This document shows positions 3,385 through 46,218 of a stretch of DNA of 64,000 bases, piece by piece. The notes below the pieces were generated by a model. That model did not search any database. It saw nothing but the letters and a program-made list of their open reading frames with translations, and had not been told where the DNA came from. Numbering within the stretch: the first letter of the stretch is position 1; each line of letters begins with the position of its first letter. Origin of the DNA: Dehalococcoidia bacterium UBA2588 (GTDB taxonomy: Bacteria > Chloroflexota > Dehalococcoidia > Lucifugimonadales > UBA3495); NCBI GenBank assembly GCA_002339805.1, contig DDKW01000035.1, positions 14,307-78,306 on the forward strand, in the 5' to 3' direction. The translations under genes and the position numbers were made by a program.

Positions 3385-3924
3385 ATGAATCGATTATCAA
3401 ATTCGAGTAAATACACTTTTTATGCGCTTGTGTTGATTGTTTTGGTTATCAGCGTATTAGGATGTTTGTCGAATCAGTCTCGGCCATCAGATGTAGTGTC
3501 AGATTTTGAGTACGTTCTCTATGATGAAACTAATACCTCTATCAAACTTTCAGATTCGTATGGAGTTCCTATAATACTTAATTTTTGGGCAGGCTTATGC
3601 CCACCGTGTAGAGCTGAAATGCCCGATTTTCAAGAATTTTATGATTCCTATGGTCATGAAATAGTGGTTATAGGAATAGACATTGGTAAATATACTGGCT
3701 TGGGTTCGAAAGCAGACGCTTTAAAACTAGTTGATGAATTGGGAATAACGTACACGATTGGTGGAGTCGAGGATGATTCGGTAATTGAACTATATAGTGT
3801 GTACGGGCTGCCGCATACTCTATTTATAGATGGTGACCAAAATCTCGTACGGGCATGGTCTGGAGTTATTAATTTGTCCAAATTGGAGGACATAGGATTG
3901 GGCATGTTAGAATCTTCACAATAA
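3385..3924 (+). CDS. TlpA-like thioredoxin-fold lipoprotein
   Basis: Probable extracytoplasmic thiol-disulfide oxidoreductase of the TlpA/ResA type. The 179-residue product starts with a basic N-terminus, a hydrophobic segment and a lipobox ending at Cys27 (VLGC), so it should be lipid-anchored outside the membrane. The redox motif CPPC lies at residues 72-75 inside the usual FWAGLCPPCRAEMP context, followed by an IGID strand and a cis-Pro region (YGLPHTLFID). It follows mfd by 4 bases and precedes tRNA-Pro directly. The partner is unknown; cytochrome c or other exported thiol proteins are the usual targets of this family. Compare the second, selenocysteine-type redoxin lipoprotein at 36049. 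Confidence 0.9.
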   Translation: MNRLSNSSKYTFYALVLIVLVISVLGCLSNQSRPSDVVSDFEYVLYDETNTSIKLSDSYGVPIILNFWAGLCPPCRAEMPDFQEFYDSYGHEIVVIGIDIGKYTGLGSKADALKLVDELGITYTIGGVEDDSVIELYSVYGLPHTLFIDGDQNLVRAWSGVINLSKLEDIGLGMLESSQ

Positions 3925-33935: not shown

Positions 33936-35969
33936 TTATTTTGAATTAGAGGAGAGTATTTGTTCTATTAGTTCATCTACTCGGGTTGTTGGGTGATTGC
34001 AGACATAGTTTTCACACATATAAGCTGTAGGTGCGCCAGAATAACGAGTTTTGCCTTTTAGTATAGGTAACTCAGAAACATAATTAACCTCTCCTACAAT
34101 GACCTTGTTAGGGAGATAATACTTATGTACAGCGATCAACAAGTCTGTAATTTCAGGGAGTTCCCCTGTGATCACGAATTCTTGACCACTATTTAGATAC
34201 ATTTCTAATCCGCATAACCAAGTACCGGCAGCTGATGGCGCACGGAGCAATACAGGAGCCATGCCCCTAAGACTTTTTTCAGAAATCGCTGAATATTTTG
34301 AGCCTCCTGTTACTTTACATAACTTTAGCAAAAGCTTTGTTGCAACAGATGCGCCGCATGGTTGAGCATTATCAAATACAGTGCGAGGTCTAGTAAGTAT
34401 TGTCGGTTCGTTTAAAGACACGTCATAAAAACAATTTTGCTGATCGTCCCAGAAGAGGAGGATCATTTTATCTGTTAACTGAACGGAGACTTCTAAATAT
34501 TTTTCGTCTAAAGTTGATTCATACAATGTCAATAAAGCATCTGCAAACAGGGCGTAATCTTCCAGATGGCCGTTTATTTTCGATGTCCCATTTCTCCAAA
34601 TTCGGTGCAATTCACCTGTGTCAGACATCAGGTTGGCTAGTAGAAATTCAGCATTATTTATAGCTAATTGCAGGTAATCTGGATTGTTTAGTGAAGATCC
34701 TGCTTCAGATAATCCTTTTAGCATCATGGCATTCCAGGCTAAGATTATTTTGTCATCTTTAAAAGGAGGGATACGATGATATCTATGAGACAATATTATC
34801 TCATTGGTTTGCATAATATTGTCATTAGGAGTGTCTGGTTCGGCCTCAAGGCTAAATTTCTTTCCGGGTACGCTGAGGATATTTTGCCCCTCAAAATTTC
34901 CGTTGTCAGTTATAGAGTAATATTCACATGCTTCATCAAATAGTTCAGTGGGTAATATATCTCTCAGCTCGTTAATATCCCATACAAAATACTTGCCTTC
35001 TATCCCTTCACTATCAGCATCTTGAGATGAAAAGAAGCCACCATCTGGATGTAGCATATCTCGTTGTATATACTGGATAGTTTGTTCCACGACGTATTTG
35101 TATTTGGGTGCATTGGTCACAAGAAATGCGTGCAAATAAAGAGGAATTAACAGTGCATTGTCGTATAACATTTTCTCGAAATGAGGAACTAACCAGTAAG
35201 CGTCAGTAGAATACCTATGGAACCCTCCACCTATCTGATCATAAATTCCTCCATACATCATGCAATCTAATGTTTTAGTTACTAATTCCAAGGATTTTTC
35301 ATCGTTATATGTTTTATGATACTGGAGCAAGAATTCAAGAGTCATCGGTTGTGGAAATTTGGGAGAATTACCGAATCCTCCATTTTGGTAATCAAAATTT
35401 TTACTAAGGGTCGATACTGCAGTCGATAAAATGTCTTCAGACAAAATAGAATCTTCAGATATTAAGGACATATTATGTTGGAGTTGCGAAGTAATTTGTT
35501 CAGATATTTTTGATATCTCTTCAGCCTTATTTTGGAAGGCATCTGCTACAGATATTAATACTGCATTAAATCCAGGCATACCATGTCTTGATTCAGGAGG
35601 GAAATAAGTTCCTGCGAAAAAAGGTTTTAAATCGGGAGTCAAAAACATTGTCATTGGCCATCCGCCGCTTCCTGTCATCATTTGAACGGCTTCCATGTAG
35701 ATAGAATCAAGGTCAGGTCTTTCTTCCCGGTCCACTTTGATGTTGATGAAATGTTCATTCATTAGTTCAGCGATTTGAACATTTTCGAACGACTCTTGTT
35801 CCATTACATGGCACCAATGACATGCTGAGTATCCAATGCTCAGCAAAATAGGCTTATTTAATGATTTGGAAAGTTCGAGCGCTTCTGCCGTCCAGGGATG
35901 CCATTCCACAGGATTGTTGGCATGCTGAAGTAAGTACGGACTGCTTTCATTGATTAAATTGTTTGGCAT
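33936..35969 (-). CDS. DUF255 thioredoxin-domain protein (YyaL/SPATA20 family)
   Basis: A 677-residue protein of the YyaL/spermatogenesis-associated protein 20 family. An N-terminal thioredoxin-like domain opens with [20 protein letters not shown] and holds the motif [15 protein letters not shown]; it is followed by an (alpha/alpha)6 barrel resembling glycosyl hydrolase or epimerase folds ([30 protein letters not shown]). No signal peptide. The function of the family is not established. It is divergent from the Sec-type lipoprotein gene at 36049, another thioredoxin-fold protein. Confidence 0.92.
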
Positions 35970-36048: not shown

Positions 36049-36696
36049 GTGTATAAATTGATTCTCGTTCCTCTTATGCTAATCCTAGTAGTATCATTCG
36101 GATGCGCTGGTAATGACACTACTAATAATCAAGTGTCTACTGTGTCTGACACGCTAGTTACAAGCACTGTAGGATCACCAACATCTCCCCCCCTTCCATC
36201 CGAAGTTCCCATGTCTGAAAAAAAATCGCAAGAACAAGACACTCAGAAAACTATCGATCTTGCGGAGACAGACACTTATTCGCCAATGTTCGATAGGTCA
36301 TTTGATTTCGAACTAGCTACAGGAGTTAGAATCAACAAAAGTGATGTATTAACAGGCAGACCTGTGTTTATGTTGTCAGTGTCTGAAAATTGAGGAACTT
36401 GTAAGCGCGAGTTACGCGATTTAGATCCATTATCTAAGCAATATCCTGGAATTGATGTTTACATCATTTCAATGGACAAACCTTCCTCCCTAGCTAAGAT
36501 TCAGGAAAAGAATGATGAGCAAGGTAGGACTCTCACATTTGTTAATCCGATAGGCGATTCTTTACGTAATCTAGAGATAGCGGCAAGATCCAATAAAATC
36601 GCGTTCGATAAATCAGGCGAAATCGTATACAGAGCATCTTTGGGAAGAGGTTCGTCTAAAGACTGGGATTCATTATTCAGTGAATTAACTCAATAA
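36049..36696 (+). CDS. Probable selenoprotein: lipid-anchored thioredoxin-like protein with UxxC motif
   Basis: Read with TGA at 36391-36393 as selenocysteine, the gene gives a 215-residue protein. It starts at a GTG with a hydrophobic signal segment and lipobox ending at Cys19 (VSFGC), a Thr/Ser/Pro-rich linker to about residue 75, then a redoxin domain: GRPVFMLSVSEN, Sec115-Gly-Thr-Cys118-Lys, RELRDLDPLSKQYPG, DVYIISMD and FDKSGEIVY. Sec falls exactly at the first cysteine of a CxxC redox motif. The two halves share one frame and the second stays open for 100 codons to a TAA. A hairpin follows the TGA at 16 bases, and selA is 8 kb away. Alternatives are a nonsense mutation of a Cys codon or a sequencing error; both would be a coincidence at this codon. 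Likely role: extracytoplasmic thiol redox chemistry. No ribosome binding site is clear at the GTG. Confidence 0.85.
36391..36423 (+). promoter_or_regulatory. Candidate bacterial SECIS element
   Basis: Directly after the TGA, CGCG (36406-36409) pairs with CGCG (36415-36418) around the loop AGTTA; three A-U pairs (36402-36404 with 36421-36423) extend the stem across a small internal loop. The apical loop begins 16 bases after the TGA and has G as its second base, both within the loose rules for bacterial SECIS elements. The stem is short, so support is moderate. Confidence 0.55.
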
Positions 36697-38624: not shown

Positions 38625-39720
38625 ATGGAAGACTTGAAAGATAAGACACAACAACTTCTCCACAGAGTTACAGACTTAATGGAGCGGCTTTGACTTAGCC
38701 TCTAAAGAAAATGAAATCAGAAAAATAGAATCAGAATCGGAGCAAAATGTTTTCTGGTCCGATCATGAGGTTGCTTCAGCAGAAATGCAAAAATTGGCAA
38801 CCTTAAAAGAAACCGTGTCTTTTTGGTCGACACTTCAGGATAAATTAAATACCTTACTTGATTTGATAGAACTCGCAATTTCGGATAATGATATGGATTT
38901 TCGAGAGGCAGCTGAACAAGAGCTCAGTGATCTTACAGTTTCCTTAGAACAAGAAGAATTCAAACTACTTTTATCAGGTGAGTATGATAATAGATCAGCT
39001 ATACTTACCATACAGGCAGGCGCAGGCGGAACTGATTCGCAAGATTGGGCTGAAATGCTGTTTAACATGTATGCTAAGTGGGGTCAGCTTCATAAAAGGA
39101 ATGTCCAGGTCTTAAACGTTTCCCATGGGGAAGATGCAGGATATAGGACTGTTACCGTACAAGTAGAAGGTGATTTTGCTTATGGATACTTAGAAAAAGA
39201 GACAGGAGTGCATCGATTGGTTCGACAATCACCATTTGATCCTAATAACGCTAGGCATACATCTTTTGCAGTAGTGGAAGTTATGCCTGTTGCATCAGCG
39301 CAATCTGACCCAGTTATTCGAAGCGAAGATATTAAAATGGATGCATTTAGATCTAGTGGCCCAGGTGGACAAAATGTCCAGAAAGTTGCTTCAGCTGTCA
39401 GATTGACACATATTCCTAGCGGTATTGTCGTTTCATGCCAGACGGAACGCTCTCAACATCAAAATAGAGAATATGCAATGCGTATTCTGAATGCAAAGTT
39501 GTTGGCAGTAGAAAAAGAACGTAGAGATAAAGAGGTTGCAGATCTTAGAGGTGAGCGGGTAAATCCCGAATGGGGAAATCAGATTAGGAGTTACGTCCTA
39601 CATCCTTACAAACAAGTTAAAGATCACAGAACAGATTTTGTGAGTACAGATCCAGACGGTGTTTTGGAAGGTCATATTGATGAATTTATAAAAGCTTATA
39701 TGGTTAAAAGCTTACAATAA
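38625..39720 (+). CDS. prfB: Peptide chain release factor 2, with programmed +1 frameshift
   Basis: Releases peptides at UGA and UAA. Translation starts at ATG 38625 (GAGGG six bases before) and runs 22 codons to CTT TGA; shifting +1 there gives GAC at 38692 and an open frame to 39720, about 364 residues in all, equal to E. coli RF2. The first part and the post-shift stretch (LDLASKENEIRKIE) form the expected N-terminal helix. The main frame has the UGA-recognition SPF motif (RQSPFDPNNARHTSF) and the catalytic GGQ (SSGPGGQNVQK). An annotation starting at 38785 would cut off the N-terminus. Opposite thrS, convergent with ribBA with no gap. Confidence 0.96.
38682..38694 (+). promoter_or_regulatory. 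prfB programmed frameshift site
   Basis: GGAG CGG CTT TGA C: an internal Shine-Dalgarno-like GGAG (38681-38684), a 3-base spacer, then the slippery CTT and the TGA at 38691-38693 followed by C. The layout matches the E. coli site, where low RF2 favours slippage and so more RF2. Confidence 0.93.
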
Positions 39721-44782: not shown

Positions 44783-44856
44783 AATTAGCTAGTTGGAACA
44801 GTGCTTATTAGAAGTTAATTAAGTGAAAATTATCAACAAGTTACAGAGTGGGGAAT

Positions 44857-46218
44857 ATGCAATTAAGAAACATACCGAGTGTAGAAGCTGTAATACGAAC
44901 TCCTGGATTAGATGCTGTAATAACGGCGTATCCTAGGGAGTGGGTGATAGATGTTATTAGAGAAACAATAGCTAAAAATCGTCAAGATGTGCTTGCAGGA
45001 GAAGAGGTTAAAGACGCACAGACTATTTCGATAGAAGTAGAAAATCATATCCAGAAAGTAATAGCTCCGAAACCAAGGGAAGTGATAAATGCAACAGGGG
45101 TGATAATTCACACCAATTTGGGTAGAGCTCCTCTCAGTAAAGATAGTATTCAAGCTGCTATGAACTGTGGGTCAGGATATAGCGATTTGGAATTGGACCT
45201 TCAAACAGGTAAGAGAGGCGGAAGGCTTGGATCTATCAAATCTTTACTTACTCAACTTACTGGGGCAGAAGATGCAGTCGTGGTTAATAACAATGCAGCG
45301 GCATTGTTGCTTGCCTTGTCTGCGTTATGTCTGGGGAGAGAAGTTATTGTCCCTCGTAGCGAAGCAATTGAAATTGGCGGAGGGTTTCGCATACCCGACG
45401 TGTTGTCTCAAAGTGGCGCTAAACTGGTAGATATAGGCACAACCAACAGGACTTACATACAAGATTACAGGAATGCAATAACGGAAGATACAGGAGCATT
45501 TTTGAAAGCACACTCAAGCAACTTTGTAATAAGCGGTTTTATTCATGAAGTAGGAGTTTCTGAATTGTCCTCGCTTGGCCAAGAACTGGACATACCAGTG
45601 ATGCATGATGTTGGTAGTGGAGCATTTATAGATACTCGGCGCTACGGATTGGCGTATGAACCTACTCCACAAAGCAGCGTCTCTGAGGGGGCAGATTTAG
45701 TTTTTTTCTCAGGCGACAAGTTACTTGGAGGACCGCAAGCAGGCATCATAGTGGGTAAAGCTAAATACATTTCGATTCTTGAACGACATCCTATGATGAG
45801 GGCTATTAGAATGGATAAGTTGAATTTAGCAGCTTTGGGCGCAACCCTAGCTCACTACATCAAAAATGAAGCTGAATCCAAGATTCCAGTATGGCAGATG
45901 ATATCAGCAACTAATGAATCTTTGATGAAAAGAATAAAGGCATGGGAAGAAATATCTCCGGATTATATGGAGATATTTCCTTCAGAATCAGCTATTGGAG
46001 GAGGTAGTCTGCCTGGGGAAACAATACCTACCGTTGCGCTGAAAATCAATGCGCACAGTATGCAAATGAATGCTATGAAAATTCAAAGTTTACTAAGAGA
46101 ATTTGACCATCCCATAGTAGCTAGAATAGAAAATGATGATGTGATTATAGATCCTCGGACTATACTGCCAGAAAGTGATGGACATATAACTCTGGCATTA
46201 CAGAGGATTTTCAACTAG
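44857..46218 (+). CDS. selA: L-seryl-tRNA(Sec) selenium transferase
   Basis: PLP enzyme that converts Ser-tRNA(Sec) to Sec-tRNA(Sec) using selenophosphate, needed to insert selenocysteine at UGA. The 453-residue protein has the SelA hallmarks NATGVIIHTNLGRAPLS, GYSDLELDLQTGKRG, VVNNNAAALLLAL, and the PLP lysine in FFSGDKLLGGPQAGIIVG. I take the ATG at 44857; a GTG three codons earlier is possible. selB, selD and the tRNA gene selC are not in the window. Its presence supports reading the TGA at 36391 as Sec. Downstream genes are unrelated. Confidence 0.95.
   Translation: MQLRNIPSVEAVIRTPGLDAVITAYPREWVIDVIRETIAKNRQDVLAGEEVKDAQTISIEVENHIQKVIAPKPREVINATGVIIHTNLGRAPLSKDSIQAAMNCGSGYSDLELDLQTGKRGGRLGSIKSLLTQLTGAEDAVVVNNNAAALLLALSALCLGREVIVPRSEAIEIGGGFRIPDVLSQSGAKLVDIGTTNRTYIQDYRNAITEDTGAFLKAHSSNFVISGFIHEVGVSELSSLGQELDIPVMHDVGSGAFIDTRRYGLAYEPTPQSSVSEGADLVFFSGDKLLGGPQAGIIVGKAKYISILERHPMMRAIRMDKLNLAALGATLAHYIKNEAESKIPVWQMISATNESLMKRIKAWEEISPDYMEIFPSESAIGGGSLPGETIPTVALKINAHSMQMNAMKIQSLLREFDHPIVARIENDDVIIDPRTILPESDGHITLALQRIFN

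Follow-up and report, generated by a model that had tools for sequence, protein, structure and literature searches.

Selenoproteins in which selenocysteine (Sec, U) opens a UxxC motif have been described for PF00578, PF08534 and thiol-disulfide isomerase types in four papers (PMC13188914, PMC9312934, PMC2398784, PMC1088965). Table 1 of PMC13188914 lists Prx-like thiol:disulfide oxidoreductase selenoproteins of PF00578 with UxxC/UxxU, a redoxin family selenoprotein of PF08534 with UxxC and a Sec peroxiredoxin of PF00578 with TxxU, and Table 2 of the Global Ocean Sampling study contains a selenoprotein 'Prx-like 1' (PMC2398784). Sec is also reported in PMC4959059 for formate dehydrogenases of other Chloroflexi, and PMC5649159 describes SelA and SelB from the majority of sponge symbiont bins, which belong to various phyla. 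A term search for 'Chloroflex' gave no hit in the main texts of the four papers named first, and within the openly licensed literature no paper pairs 'selenoprotein' with 'SAR202'. Among the matches listed from open-licence literature, no description of the Sec redoxin reported here was found.

We analysed a stretch of 64,000 nucleotides (the window) from a Dehalococcoidia genome (1.31 Mb, 77% complete), and read one of its genes as a lineage-specific variant of the Prx-like UxxC selenoproteins. The two share a PF00578 match above cut-off, the UxxC motif and a predicted thiol redox role (PMC13188914, PMC2398784). Set against the published descriptions alone, the gene would stand apart by a lipobox and linker, by Ser (in some relatives Met) at the cis-proline place, by its order-wide spread with tandem copies and by nested Cys forms. 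The redoxin family selenoprotein of PF08534 has the same motif, but the window protein itself falls under the PF08534 cut-off; the Sec peroxiredoxin has the same Pfam domain, but Sec in the window protein lies three residues earlier, in UxxC and not TxxU (both from Table 1 of PMC13188914). The kind of protein is not new, because UxxC selenoproteins of the PF00578 domain are already in print. An earlier sequence-only reading of the window had proposed "perhaps an undescribed family"; as a lineage-specific variant this stands, as a new kind of selenoprotein it does not.

Frame +1 is open from the GTG at 36049 to the TAA at 36694-36696 with a single internal stop, the TGA at 36391-36393. The codons that follow are GGA ACT TGT AAG CGC GAG, so that the motif opened by the TGA reads U-G-T-C-K-R-E, and 100 codons pass until the TAA. 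That is, the one frame interrupted solely by this TGA, the Gly-Thr-Cys-Lys-Arg-Glu continuation and the 100 open codons noticed in the sequence-only reading are all there, as is the selA gene that it had placed in the same window. The features are collected in Table 1.

Table 1. Features of the Sec-redoxin gene and of selA in the window.
Feature	Position	Strand	Details and basis
Sec-redoxin lipoprotein gene	36049..36696	+	215 residues, Sec at 115, GTG start, TAA stop; TGA-containing homologs
Predicted lipoprotein signal peptide ending SFGC, Cys19 at 36103-36105	36049..36105	+	sequence
Low-complexity linker, 66 residues	36106..36303	+	pLDDT block means 46-67, low model confidence
AhpC-TSA/TlpA-type thioredoxin-fold domain, residues 86-215	36304..36693	+	PF00578 match; pLDDT block means 87-97
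UGA codon, Sec115, first position of UGTC	36391..36393	+	aligned homologs
Cys118, last position of UGTC	36400..36402	+	Cys in 30/30 rows of alignment A1
Candidate SECIS hairpin CGCG-AGUUA-CGCG	36406..36418	+	family hairpin; evidence for window copy mixed
Ser181 at thioredoxin cis-proline place	36589..36591	+	alignment: Ser 28/30 rows, Met 2/30
selA, selenocysteine synthase	44848..46218	+	TIGR00474 E 1.8e-161

With P0001 as query, 116 of 250 genomes of the order were matched at E <= 0.001. The matches listed cover 113 of these genomes: 105 have a match holding exactly one stop, a TGA (TGA-form genomes), and eight have stop-free matches only, one of which (G247) is incomplete because it lies where a contig begins. 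The position of the TGA was verified in the fetched loci, which represent a part of the 105 genomes. Searching 50 such loci (L009-L038 and L049-L068, many overlapping) with the family profile gave, together with the window, 49 distinct family sites, after six CxxC matches that resemble TlpA paralogs (E near 1e-9 to 1e-12) had been left out of the count. TGA occupies 42 of the 49 sites and Cys six (L014, L019, L024, L029, L066 and L067), which bears out the proposal that the TGA marks the first position of a redox motif; the Cys homologs that the earlier reading had suggested looking for read CPSC, CPGC, CSTC or CTTC. Sec forms vary between UPVC, UPTC, UGTC, UGQC, URSC and others, with U/C and the final C constant. 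The one remaining site is TGG (Trp) in L017, a tandem copy on the minus strand in G249, whose other copy has TGA; this TGG is perhaps a mutation or perhaps a sequence error.

The 14 named loci from a genome contig database carry record titles of SAR202 cluster bacteria, Dehalococcoidia or Chloroflexi, and, judged by such relatives, the window organism, an ocean bacterium, probably belongs to the SAR202 group. TGA stands at the site in 13 of these 14 loci; L081 was missed by the search pattern. A sample of 400 genomes from the phylum, which included some from the order and the window's own and in which up to eight candidates were scored per genome, gave five matches at E <= 1e-20: the window's genome, G247 (from the order), G305 and G417 (TGA, other families) and G486 (stop-free). 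The protein family thus seems rare outside the order. The TGA forms of G417 (L091) and G305 (L092) belong to the same phylum but lie outside the order, and perhaps reflect transfer. Tandem arrangements occur, as in G176, where about 2.1 kb of a single contig contain three copies; the window's genome has a single copy of the Sec redoxin.

A pseudogene or a sequencing error, with TGA in place of a lost TGT or TGC, would need just a single-base change, and the TGG of L017 indicates that the site is open to change or error. It is hard to reconcile, however, with a TGA conserved at 42 of the 49 family sites and in G209, a genome of the same genus in which protein identity spanning the TGA is 63%. 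Between the window and G209, 79 of 98 residues after the TGA are identical and dN/dS over these 98 codons is 0.057, a value that is rough because synonymous divergence is high (dS 1.97). By this codon comparison, purifying selection acts on the coding stretch downstream of the TGA. Together with the covarying family hairpin described below, these observations led us to reject decay or error, to which we assign next to no probability.

Could TGA instead be read throughout the organism as Trp or another amino acid? The frame would be open under such a code. Yet 13 of the 56 ORFs listed for the window end in TGA, so that UGA also serves as an ordinary stop, and prfB, encoding RF2, contains CTT-TGA-C at 38688-38694, which we take to be the RF2 frameshift site. 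Six stop-free family copies with the motif have Cys at the place, though L017 has Trp. The genome, moreover, encodes the complete Sec machinery of selA, selB, tRNA-Sec (selC) and selD. The tRNA-Sec scores 64.4 bits, above the Rfam cut-off, and is called tRNA-SeC with anticodon tca by ARAGORN; selB is above its cut-off. Given TGA stops, prfB, the Sec machinery and the Cys counterparts, general reassignment of TGA was rejected as extremely improbable. The ORF listed for prfB (38785-39720) is without its start.

The selB, selD and tRNA-Sec genes, which the sequence-only reading had named as a check, were thus all found. The selD gene (G000:C14, L044/L047) has an in-frame TGA of its own in ...HCAGUAAK..., and its reading frame is broken by a run of N; judged from the sequence, it is probably a second selenoprotein gene of this genome. 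The four other PF00578 matches of the window's genome are all stop-free. Across the order, selA was detected in 202 of 250 genomes, and in 98 of the 105 TGA-form genomes among the matches listed; the seven without a selA match (G014, G026, G153, G212, G215, G230 and G244) are 55 to 83% complete. In the seven genomes with stop-free forms only (the partial G247 omitted), selA was present in G167, G168 and G170 and was not detected in G166, G245, G151 and G022. The difference between 98/105 and 3/7 has a Fisher p of 0.0016, with no correction for kinship. Taken with the Sec/Cys homologs, these genes support Sec as the first residue of UxxC, and from the sequence comparisons the window gene is close to certain to be a selenoprotein gene.

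Downstream of the UGA, the Sec genes of the family share a putative stem of six pairs that starts ten bases past the UGA and has the common form GCNCCG-AGUUR-CGGNGC. In 35 distinct rows, 84.8% of cells were paired versus 72.2 in shuffled alignments, and 28 cells were changed on both sides versus 11.0 (0 of 500 shuffles as high in either case). The covariation score was 0.317 compared to 0.130 after shuffling (0/500) and to 0.136 at most for slides. Weaker measures were the number of pairs with both sides changed (5 versus 3.3, reached in 21/500 shuffles) and of further pair types (9 versus 8.1, 176/500). In 9 of the 35 distinct rows (10 of 42 sites) only three of the six pairs form in the common register; once a single base is allowed to bulge out of the 3' arm, all ten sites regain six pairs, and RNAfold draws the bulged stem in seven of them. 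Loops were AGTTG in 23 rows, AGTTA in eight, CGTTG in three and AGTTT in one. By these alignments, a covarying hairpin follows the UGA in the family, and its small apical loop contains a G.

Codon use in the loop follows the same pattern: all 41 Leu sites of the Sec genes use TTG or TTA (one further site is Phe), versus 18% TTR among the other Leu codons of these genes. The six Cys genes retain one to four of the six pairs, with loops AATTA (four genes), AGCTC and AGTTG (one each); five of the six nevertheless keep TTR at the loop Leu site, which counts against the Sec reading. Codon-shuffled folding energies of the 42 Sec sites gave a mean z of -1.07 (sem 0.14) for the 45 bases after the UGA and of 0.02, 0.10 and -0.12 farther downstream. 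Since the upstream mean is also -0.62, folding energy alone is not specific. The six Cys sites had a mean z of -0.20 (sem 0.25) in the first 45 bases and -1.04 in the stretch that follows.

For the window's own copy as a SECIS element the evidence is mixed. The candidate hairpin spans the longest run of identical codons relative to G209 (four codons), and no other of the window's 279 AGTTR sites, both strands counted, has four G-C pairs beside the loop; at least four pairs, counting A-T and G-T, occur at 9 of the 279. Against it, RNAfold favours another hairpin, and the z-scores are weak (-0.46, -1.21 and -1.94). Model R1 gives the window site its highest score in the genome, 24.3 bits with the next at 15.2, the window being part of the R1 training set. 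Model R2, trained without the window and G209, failed to find the window hairpin, and scores the Cys form L067 at 28 bits.

The proposal of a thioredoxin-fold protein agrees with both the domain search and the structure model. Residues 86-162 of the window protein match PF00578 (AhpC-TSA) with 29.5 bits (cut-off 26), and all 30 rows of alignment A1 do so at E <= 0.001. PF08534 is matched by 28 of the 30 family rows at E <= 0.001, the window protein reaching 15.7 bits (cut-off 26.6). The AlphaFold2 model has a mean pLDDT of 79.7, and in it UGTC (115-118) begins a helix (116-131), that is, the redox pair would sit at a helix N-end. A PDB sequence search with P0001 alone gave nothing at E <= 0.01; matches of the family profile include ResA, DsbE and CcmG, and those named are mainly TlpA/ResA/DsbE types. 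With the TlpA/ResA/DsbE(CcmG) proteins the window protein would share the thioredoxin fold (by model and profile), a predicted membrane-anchored extracytoplasmic place and the position of the CxxC-type pair. It differs from them by Sec in place of the first Cys, by the missing cis-proline and by a score against NCBIfam dsbE (13.9 bits) far under the curated cut-off of 123.15.

P105, U/C115, C118, G190 and R195 are invariant in all 30 family rows. The cis-proline place, located by alignment only, falls in a Q-S-T-K stretch. TlpA paralogs at window 3385-3924 and in L063 have Pro there. Ser is also found in two Cys orthologs, P0012 and L066, and Asp in a third, L067, which argues that the absence of cis-proline is independent of Sec. 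Lipoproteins carry a hydrophobic stretch followed by a lipobox Cys. The N-terminus of the window protein is hydrophobic (...LILVVSFGC) and fits the general lipobox pattern, and several relatives likewise have a hydrophobic N-terminus closing in Cys; a lipoprotein signal is thus plausible from the sequence.

From fold, motif and signal we infer a surface thiol/selenol oxidoreductase, and a Sec-dependent extracytoplasmic oxidoreductase is highly probable. In the mechanism we propose, SelB and Sec-tRNA would read the hairpin at 36406-36418 and insert Sec at the UGA. The product would be exported and lipidated at Cys19, and the flexible linker would hold the domain at the outer face of the cell membrane. 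There, Sec115, in the attacking position, and Cys118 could cycle between selenolate/thiol and selenenylsulfide, and the resulting thiol/selenol exchange would most likely serve to reduce surface proteins or small molecules at their disulfides or oxidised thiols. As to direction, we put a reductase at about an even chance, and regard a peroxidase and any other activity as unlikely, to a similar degree.

As a surface peroxidase, the protein would use Sec115 to reduce hydroperoxides, including membrane lipid hydroperoxides, and Cys118 to resolve the selenenic acid. Sec favours peroxide chemistry, the PF00578 domain is present and the lipid anchor would bring the protein to the membrane. In addition, 80 of the 105 TGA-form genomes lacked both VKOR and CcdA/DsbD_TM, even with weak matches to the latter included. 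The peroxiredoxin signature, however, is P-x3-T/S-x2-C, and the window protein has Val111 at the Pro place and Sec115 at the Thr/Ser place, which rules out a classical peroxiredoxin. The prevalence of TlpA/ResA/DsbE types among the named PDB matches also speaks against peroxidase activity, which we consider improbable, though a real candidate.

For the preferred thiol/selenol oxidoreductase, a source of electrons has to be considered. Of the 105 TGA-form genomes, nine have DsbD_TM (CcdA/DsbD) above cut-off, a number that rises to 20 with weak matches, and 11 have VKOR. Among the 39 TGA-form genomes of the window's family, DsbD_TM was found in three (36 without) and VKOR in none; DsbD_TM was not found in the window's genome, at its 77% completeness, a point against the oxidoreductase reading. 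The scarcity of CcdA/DsbD and VKOR argues against either as the general partner, within the limits set by genome incompleteness and other relays. Tentatively, and with a rather low probability, the family may form a SAR202 lineage-specific surface selenol redox system, ancestrally Sec, often tandem, without CcdA/DsbD/VKOR or cis-proline, and served by another donor or by a self-sufficient peroxidase cycle.

A quick tree built from 57 rows (42 Sec and six Cys sites, eight Cys database proteins and one TlpA outgroup) placed the Cys forms among the Sec forms, with three changes. In this tree the outgroup sits on a very long branch and the window pair on a long one, and 21 of the 54 inner branches are weak. 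This nesting suggests that Sec is the older, ancestral state and that Cys forms arose by later losses. A natural Sec/Cys series of one protein, with the hairpin intact or decayed, bears on why Sec is kept. The dark ocean is rich in SAR202 bacteria, and a Sec protein retained across much of the order would tie the group to selenium supply.

The protein databases searched yielded the closest forms as fragments only. Against about 5.8 billion predicted proteins, P0001 gave nothing at E <= 0.001 among 227 candidates, in a search whose length limit lies above the 114 residues of N-terminal stubs; genome and viral contig databases scanned with P0001 yielded no relative. The family profile retrieved Cys forms, of which P0012 carries the name 'peroxiredoxin family protein [SAR202 cluster bacterium]', along with short C-terminal stubs. 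The stubs P0043, P0044, P0046 and P0047 start at a Met downstream of the UGA; gene callers stop at the UGA, and our protein searches returned the closest forms as C-terminal stubs only.

In the gene neighbourhoods of the compared loci no operon partner was found. Within the window's family, the gene, alone or in a pair, has a DUF255-type gene on one side and thrS on the other in L049, L052, L057 and L059 (named by eye), an arrangement absent from L055 of the same family. Other neighbours are a class-V aminotransferase (L066) and a HAD hydrolase (L050), and a CxxC TlpA-type gene is nearby in L014, L019, L024, L029, L035 and L036. In the window, a DUF255/Thioredox_DsbH gene with CHWC (33936-35969), identified by a scan, is divergent to the Sec gene. 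The TlpA-like gene at 3385-3924 encodes a Cys-type lipoprotein candidate with CPPC, which invites comparison with the Sec redoxin.
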